DNA of 38,963 nucleotides from Xanthomonas sp. (GTDB taxonomy: Bacteria; Pseudomonadota; Gammaproteobacteria; Xanthomonadales; Xanthomonadaceae). The DNA lies in contig JADFDQ010000017.1 of the NCBI GenBank assembly GCA_018262705.1, positions 1 through 38,963 on the forward strand. Reading direction: 5' to 3'. Within the stretch, counting starts at the first letter, position 1, and each line of letters starts with the position of its first letter. Below are positions 14,254 to 15,704 of this stretch, piece by piece. The notes under the pieces were generated by a model. The model did not search any database, was not told where the DNA came from, and saw only the letters and a program-made list of their open reading frames with translations. The position numbers and the translations under genes are program-made.

Positions 14254-14961
14254 GTGATCATCGAACGACCGGCGTCCGCCCGCGGCGAGGTGCGGCTGGA
14301 CTGGCTGCACAGCCGGCACACGTTTTCCTTTGGCCACTATTACGATCCGGCGTGGATGGGATTTGGTTTGCTGCGGGTGATCAACGCTGACACCGTGGCG
14401 CCGGGCGGCGGCTTCGCACCGCACAACCACGCCAACATGGAAATCGTCAGCGTGGTGCTGGACGGCGCGCTGGCGCACCGCGACAGCGCCGGCCACGAAG
14501 GCGTGATCCGCGCCGGCGACGTGCAGTGGATGAGCGCCGGGCATGGCATCTCGCACAGCGAATACAACGGTTCCGACATCGAGCCGGTGCATTTCCTGCA
14601 GATCTGGATCCAGACAGAACGCCTGAACGCGGAGCCGGCCTACGCGCAGAAACACTTCGCGCCGGAGGATCGGCGCGGCCGCTGGGTTGTGCTGGTTTCC
14701 CCGGACGGCGCCGACGGTTCGATCGCGATTCGCCAGCAGGCGCGGATTTTTGCCGCGCGTCTGGATCGGGACGAAAGCGTGCAGGCGACGCTGGATCCGC
14801 AGCGGCGCTATTGGCTGCACGCGGCCACCGGCGAGGTCGCGGTGGGCGAGCGGACGCTGGTGGCGGGCGATGCGCTCGGATTTGTCGAGGAAAGCGGAGT
14901 CCTCACGCTGACCGGTCGCGCCGCCGGCGACGTGCTGCTGTTCGAGTTGCCCCACGCCTGA
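14254..14961 (+). CDS. pirin-family protein (YhhW-like)
   Basis: Bicupin of 235 aa in the pirin/YhhW family; E. coli YhhW acts as a quercetin dioxygenase in vitro. The metal-binding set is complete: His57 and His59 in PHNHANME, and His101 and Glu103 in GISHSEYN, the same numbering I recall for YhhW. The sequence opens with SRHTFSFGHYYDPAWMGFG, typical of the family. Translation starts at GTG 14254, nine bases after a GGAG that overlaps the YceI stop, so the two are probably translationally linked. The native substrate is unknown. The association with YceI and a nitroreductase suggests oxidative or quinone stress. Confidence 0.9.
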   Translation: MIIERPASARGEVRLDWLHSRHTFSFGHYYDPAWMGFGLLRVINADTVAPGGGFAPHNHANMEIVSVVLDGALAHRDSAGHEGVIRAGDVQWMSAGHGISHSEYNGSDIEPVHFLQIWIQTERLNAEPAYAQKHFAPEDRRGRWVVLVSPDGADGSIAIRQQARIFAARLDRDESVQATLDPQRRYWLHAATGEVAVGERTLVAGDALGFVEESGVLTLTGRAAGDVLLFELPHA

Positions 14962-15060
14962 ATTGCGGTAGGGTTGTCTTCAGGGGAAGGCTCTCAATTG
15001 CTCCGGGCGTCCCCGACCGGCTTCGCGCCGACTTGGATTGCATGACTCCGGAGACAAGCC

Positions 15061-15399
15061 ATGCTGTTTCGCCTGCTCGTACTCGCCTTGGGTTTGGCCG
15101 CGGCCGCGCCGGCTTCCGCGGTGCGCGTCTTCGTCGTCGACTATCCCTCGCAGGCCGACCTCAAGGTCTACAAGGTGCAATACCGCTCGGAAGCGGATCT
15201 GCGTGTGTACTGGGTCGAATATCGCAGCGAGGCCGACGGCGATGCCAAATGGTGGCGTTCGGAGTACGCCTCCGATGCCGAGTTGAAGGTGTACTTCGTG
15301 CGCTACCCGTCGGAAGCCGATCTGAAGATTTACGAGGTCAAGTACGCCAGCGAGGCCGGCTGGGATGGCGCGCCGCGCGGGCTGTCGATTCGCAAATAG
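15061..15399 (+). CDS. small secreted Tyr-periodic repeat protein (DUF6150/septoil-knot-like)
   Basis: An exported protein of 112 aa. Residues 1-20 are a signal peptide ending in ASA. The mature chain is almost entirely six units of 13-15 residues with the pattern (V/I)-Y-x-V-x-Y-x-S-E-A-D-L-K; the anchoring tyrosines fall at 28, 41, 54, 69, 82 and 95. The alternating V/Y pattern predicts short beta strands separated by the S-E/Q-A-D turn. No cysteines are present in the mature part. From memory the pattern matches the DUF6150 family, linked to a deeply knotted 7(1) fold, but I could not verify this. A strong Shine-Dalgarno (CCGGAGAC, near 15049) fixes the start, and a hairpin follows at 15421. 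Function unknown. Confidence 0.8.
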   Translation: MLFRLLVLALGLAAAAPASAVRVFVVDYPSQADLKVYKVQYRSEADLRVYWVEYRSEADGDAKWWRSEYASDAELKVYFVRYPSEADLKIYEVKYASEAGWDGAPRGLSIRK

Positions 15400-15420
15400 T
15401 CGGTTGCAGGTCTGAACAAG

Positions 15421-15439
15421 CCGGCCCATGGCCGGGTTT
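15421..15439 (+). terminator. hairpin terminator after the repeat protein
   Basis: CCGGCC (15421-15426) and GGCCGG (15430-15435) form a six-base stem around CAT, followed by GTTT. The short T-run makes it weak, but the place, 22 bp after the stop codon, fits a terminator. Confidence 0.5.
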
Positions 15440-15500
15440 CCCGTGCCGCGATATGGCCGCCTGAAGTAAACTTGCGGGGTTCCGCAGGACTGCAGTTTCC

Positions 15501-15704
15501 ATGGCCGACCAGAATCCAACCGCCCAGACGCCGCCGAACGCGGGAAAGCGCTACGAGGTGCGCCGCGCCGACCTGCCGCTGAGCTGTCCGCTGCCTTCGA
15601 TGTCGCTGTGGAATTCGCATCCGCGCGTGTACCTGCCGATCGAGACCAACGGCGGCAGCGCGCGCTGTCCGTACTGCAGCGCGCTGTACGTGCTGGTGGA
15701 TTGA
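15501..15704 (+). CDS. CHCC-type zinc-finger protein
   Basis: A 67-aa protein of the zf-CHCC family, the zinc module of the mitochondrial complex I subunit NDUFS6. Predicted ligands are Cys29, His40, Cys56 and Cys59, in the layout C-x10-H-x15-C-x2-C, with the family segment NSHPRVYLPIE followed by CPYCSALY. Bacterial relatives are free-standing and of uncertain role, and no nuo genes are in the window. The start ATG has only a weak purine tract upstream. It is followed 41 bp later by the glycosyltransferase gene on the same strand, so it may be the first gene of the LPS-related transcript. Confidence 0.85.
   Translation: MADQNPTAQTPPNAGKRYEVRRADLPLSCPLPSMSLWNSHPRVYLPIETNGGSARCPYCSALYVLVD

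Follow-up and report, generated by a model that had tools for sequence, protein, structure and literature searches.

The DUF6150 gene and its repeats

The window analysed here is a 38,963-nucleotide stretch of Xanthomonas sp. (contig JADFDQ010000017.1). Within it, a single gene for a small protein of the Pfam family DUF6150 lies between a pirin gene and a zf-CHCC gene. The coordinates of these genes, of the repeat units of the encoded protein (hereafter the window protein) and of the other features of the locus are given in Table 1.

Table 1. Features of the DUF6150 locus, in positions of the window
Feature	Position	Strand	Basis or remark
Pirin gene, upstream neighbour	14254..14961	+	PF02678 and PF17954
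Interval from pirin stop to conserved zf-CHCC leader, contains DUF6150 gene	14962..15461		Outer limits of insertion, ends not mapped
DUF6150 gene, 112 aa, ATG start	15061..15399	+	PF19647.4 match, residues 17-102
Signal-peptide-like segment, residues 1-20	15061..15120	+	Hydrophobicity rule; putative cleavage after A20
Repeat unit 1, Y28, 13 residues	15142..15180	+	Repeat analysis
Repeat unit 2, Y41, 13 residues	15181..15219	+	Repeat analysis
Repeat unit 3, Y54, 15 residues, contains W64-W65	15220..15264	+	Repeat analysis
Repeat unit 4, Y69, 13 residues	15265..15303	+	Repeat analysis
Repeat unit 5, Y82, 13 residues	15304..15342	+	Repeat analysis
Repeat unit 6, truncated, Y95 to G100-W101	15343..15363	+	Repeat analysis and 31-row alignment
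Weak terminator-like hairpin, 6-bp stem 15421-15426/15430-15435, then three T	15421..15435	+	-12.7 kcal/mol, z -0.93 against shuffles
zf-CHCC gene, downstream neighbour	15501..15704	+	PF10276

A preliminary description of the locus, made from the letters of the sequence, had proposed six tyrosine-periodic units with a single 15-residue exception, and both elements of this architecture were confirmed. Units of the form Y-x-S-x-A start at residues 28, 41, 54, 69, 82 and 95, giving spacings of 13, 13, 15, 13 and 13 residues, and the 15-residue step contains W64-W65-R. The complete set of tyrosines in the protein is 28, 37, 41, 50, 54, 69, 78, 82, 91 and 95. Identity at lag 13 was 0.385 over residues 22-112, a value reached by none of 20,000 composition-preserving shuffles; the maximum taken over lags 1-29 was likewise reached by 0/20,000. 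A search of the window protein against its own genome returned itself as the single match. The gene had also been credited with its own terminator. The evidence for this terminator is weak: the hairpin listed in Table 1 was found, and a terminator scan of 14900-15600 reported no plus-strand site.

Family membership and distribution

The window protein was compared with Pfam DUF6150 (PF19647) by HMM search and scored 61.1 bits (E 1.1e-16) against a curated cut-off of 27, with residues 17-102 covering profile positions 5-90 of 98. The assignment to DUF6150 is therefore right. At all four loci retrieved by the window protein alone, the genome's one PF19647 match exceeded the cut-off. Alignments retrieved three further candidates; L022 and L053 had PF19647 matches over the cut-off, and L054 was rejected as a family member because its record held no PF19647 match. 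All 31 rows of the alignment described below match DUF6150, although 24 of them were retrieved with the PF19647 model itself, so that this count is circular and independent support comes from the four loci that the window protein itself retrieved.

Of the genomes sampled, 5 of 25 in the genus, 11 of 296 in the taxonomic family and 4 of 398 in the phylum had a DUF6150 match, the window's genome being included each time. In a further sampling, of the phylum to which the Cytophagaceae MAG L007 belongs, 18 of 345 genomes had such a match (L007 among them), 17 of the 18 over the cut-off. None of 14 control genomes had DUF6150, in the genus, family, phylum and L007-phylum samplings alike. Some homologues lie on contigs filed as viral.

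Searches of other model collections were also performed. NCBIfam held nothing near its cut-off for the window protein (best E 0.059) or for five relatives (best E 0.013). The best PHROG match of the window protein was unconvincing (E 0.17), and no convincing PADLOC family was obtained for it (best E 0.031). One DUF6150 relative, L064, matched the uncharacterised phage protein family phrog_6462 at E 5.5e-5; no match was found when L064 was searched by tblastn against phage records.

Pfam states no function for the family, and neither DUF6150 nor PF19647 was named in any of the open-licence papers searched, in keeping with the earlier remark that the function appeared to be undescribed. The window protein resembles other members in its score, well over the cut-off, and in the position of its tryptophan, and no trait was found to distinguish it. 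Within this known family, which has no assigned function, it is an ordinary member.

Conserved positions and divergent members

The 31-row alignment was assembled without L014, L015 and L017 (near-copies lacking a signal-like segment), without loci L073-L079 (seven, all divergent or partial) and without the final residues of L010. Repeats of places already covered (L001, L005, L055-L060, L081, L083) were also left out. The W unit is a trait of the family: W64 was invariant in all 31 rows, and the unit comprised 14 residues in 3 rows, 15 in 14 rows and 16 in the remaining 14. Near-invariant positions were A32, A45, L47, V49, A58, A99, G100 and W101. No column of this alignment had a cysteine majority.

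A divergent DUF6150 protein was observed in genome G743 (L076:985-1701, minus strand; 38.7 bits). Its five YEAD units are all plain, the W unit being absent. Beyond them lie a linker rich in serine, a probable membrane segment and, at the C-terminus, a stretch whose match to Bacterial SH3 falls below the cut-off (24.1 versus 27 bits). In genome G852, two DUF6150 matches (L074 and L078) lie approximately 1 kb or less apart and may represent a tandem pair.

Export

N-termini were assessed with a simple hydrophobicity rule in 34 rows, comprising the 31 aligned rows plus L090, L091 and L094. The 10-residue hydrophobicity mean for residues 1-20 of the window protein was 2.82, which supports the signal-like segment initially proposed. 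A signal-like N-terminus was present in 29 of the 34 rows including the window's, a share that depends on sampling since the near-copies L014, L015 and L017 had been omitted. Because so many rows are signal-like by the same rule, the predicted secretion of the window protein is not special, and its earlier presentation as a distinguishing trait is not supported. Among loci outside the 34 rows, L073 and L074 looked exported by eye and L076 did not.

The five rows with no signal-like segment (L013, L016, L018, L021 and L072) share the Pfam family and the W position with the window protein but form one separate clade with support of 100/100. Their proteins are 91-93 residues long and have fewer repeat tyrosines than the window protein. 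Judged from the N-termini, export looks to be the common state of DUF6150 and not a peculiarity of the window gene.

Chromosomal sites and neighbouring genes

A zf-CHCC match was obtained in 24 of the 25 genus genomes, and these 24 loci were compared. Pirin adjoins zf-CHCC in 23 of them, the window's included (the pirin match of L034 is only 43% identical); L033 has no pirin in the flank of zf-CHCC. DUF6150 lies between the two genes solely in the window's locus, and 22 of the 23 other loci have pirin beside zf-CHCC without it. A zf-CHCC leader starting at approximately 15462 was recognised by eye as common to the window, L030, L031 and L032, and sets the downstream limit of the insertion.

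In the other four carriers of the genus, the DUF6150 gene adjoins dapB. carA is on its far side in the three carriers whose contigs reach that far, and the names of the neighbours were confirmed with Pfam at L023. Both dapB and carA are present in 21 of 25 genus dapB loci, with a gap between them of 115-194 bp in the 18 loci without DUF6150 versus 606-647 bp in the 3 with it. carA was not found in the remaining four dapB loci, one of which belongs to the window's genome; at this locus (L115, contig C1), no carA occurs within approximately 6.9 kb after dapB.

The DUF6150 gene is thus a one-gene insertion, patchily present, at two chromosomal sites of one genus. The two sites would follow from relocation or from two entries, between which the data do not discriminate. 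A search of 14900-15560, around the gene in the window, revealed no flanking repeat.

A comparison of homologue neighbourhoods had been envisaged in the preliminary description. It was carried out on 30 chosen neighbour proteins from other loci and on 33 loci, and yielded no recurrent partner. Pfam scans of the 30 proteins showed none that recurred as a partner at distant loci; pirin appeared once (L098). Comparison of the 33 loci by BLAST revealed no common neighbour beyond close relatives, save pirin in two. L090 and L094, on contigs filed as viral, have a common gene order around the DUF6150 gene, whose start is overlapped by a same-strand ORF of 123 residues. Two neighbour proteins of L090 were searched against Pfam and gave no match.

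Selection and descent

Substitution rates were estimated for the ten pairs among the five genus members (the window's and four congeners). dN/dS was 0.07-0.33 in nine pairs, values that are rough since dS in these pairs was 0.68-2.26; the tenth pair was not estimable, as dS was saturated. The DUF6150 gene of the genus is judged from these ratios to be under purifying selection, and so conserved as a protein. All five copies from the genus group in a single clade (98/89), in which the window's copy is sister to the other four (93/86); the bootstrap of this tree was not fully settled.

Discussion

The new observation is a one-gene DUF6150 insertion, under purifying selection, in 5 of 25 genomes of one genus, which occupies the pirin/zf-CHCC site in the window and the dapB site in the four other carriers. 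This gene is probably a single-gene accessory unit encoding an exported DUF6150 domain, whose export, fold and role are predicted here from the protein sequence. The chain would pass through Sec in an unfolded state, be cleaved behind residue 20 and adopt a compact all-beta fold once outside the cytoplasm. Within each 13-residue unit, S-E-A-D would form a turn and L-K-V-Y-x-V a strand, with the one long crossing supplied by the W64 unit. Conservation appears to fall on structural positions and includes no cysteine, and the loci showed no partner gene; the domain is therefore more likely a highly stable element for binding or scaffolding than an enzyme.

The preliminary description had given the family a 7_1 knotted fold. 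DUF6150 may be the family of the knotted protein Q9PR55 (7_1) and of P73136 (predicted 5_1), presumably the family now called '7(1) septoil knot'. Literature searches with 'septoil' gave no related paper, and searches on knotted proteins with periplasm or signal peptide gave no title on exported knots. A 7_1 knot was predicted for Q9PR55 of Ureaplasma urealyticum (PMC9278004), for which the crystal structure PDB 8IWA is described (PMC13352647, PMC11223836). P73136, a homologue of Q9PR55, is given a predicted 5_1 knot with a core of 45-94 (PMC9278004). Q9PR55 is, as described, a small single-domain protein of unknown function like the window protein, with 89 residues against 112 including a signal-like segment; P73136 has 112 residues, as does the window protein (PMC9278004). 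The knot type would therefore vary even if DUF6150 is the published family.

AlphaFold returned a pLDDT of 37.6 both for the precursor (5 rows) and for residues 22-112 (10 rows), the alignments being shallow. PDB sequence searches with four single sequences and six profiles (7 to 31 rows) produced chance-level matches only, with a best E of 0.08. 8IWA was not among the entries returned, which is evidence against a link between DUF6150 and the knot, softened by the presence of 8IWA in the PDB copy searched being uncontrolled. The lack of an 8IWA match to the 31-row profile also counts against the link, provided that 8IWA is in that copy and in the family. Knottedness of the window protein's fold, whether 7_1 or 5_1, rests on the presumed family equivalence, and the data neither support nor refute it.

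The strongest alternative, which we regard as rather unlikely, is that the domain is an unknotted beta-solenoid or beta-roll of the ordinary kind, built of 13-residue turns, and that the 7_1 link is mistaken. Strict 13-residue periodicity such as that of the window protein is typical of solenoids. The outcome of the PDB sequence searches, in which the published knotted protein was not matched, and the five plain units of the divergent L076, which has no W unit, are also in its favour. A plain solenoid would, however, not need an invariant W64 and a W unit of 14-16 residues in 31 of 31 rows. The similar size of the published knotted proteins, 112 and 89 residues (PMC9278004), counts in the same direction, and both of these arguments carry little weight.

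The gene could also be mobile-element cargo of a toxin, antitoxin or immunity-like kind, and its patchy occurrence as a one-gene insertion would then be explained. Its scattered occurrence in the genus, family and phylum samplings, the two sites within one genus and the homologues on contigs filed as viral agree with this, but we consider it improbable. No integrase or known partner was detected among seven neighbouring ORFs scanned, and four queries against 50,697 phage records and six against 72,556 plasmid records gave no match. The want of a flanking repeat at 14900-15560 and of a convincing PADLOC family speaks against it as well, and the single clade formed by the genus copies is more in line with descent, or with a single entry, than with frequent exchange.

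A shared pathway with pirin would fit the position of pirin immediately before the gene in the window and immediately after it, in the same orientation, in L098 (L007 phylum sample). It is very improbable, given that the four other genus carriers have the gene beside dapB, that pirin was 1 of the 30 neighbour proteins scanned from other loci, and that genus genomes lacking DUF6150 usually have pirin next to zf-CHCC, for which reason the adjacency was not read as a pathway.

The exported single-gene unit is the preferred reading, and a more specific proposal is attached to it tentatively. Chains pass through Sec unfolded, and an exported knotted DUF6150 protein would therefore have to tie outside the cytoplasm. 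It is quite possible, at slightly short of even confidence, that the exported DUF6150 proteins carry deep knots (5_1 or 7_1) and tie themselves outside the cytoplasm without ATP-driven chaperones. The one-gene unit occurs at two sites in a single genus, and its natural variants (exported, signal-less and W-less) would allow tests of what produces the knot. Pfam gives DUF6150 no function in either case. Should DUF6150 prove to be unknotted, the presumed DUF6150-7_1 link needs correction. Should it prove to be knotted, the family would supply small, natural and related test proteins for knotting, and, as most rows look exported, knot-tying outside the cytoplasm would be normal for it and not a curiosity.
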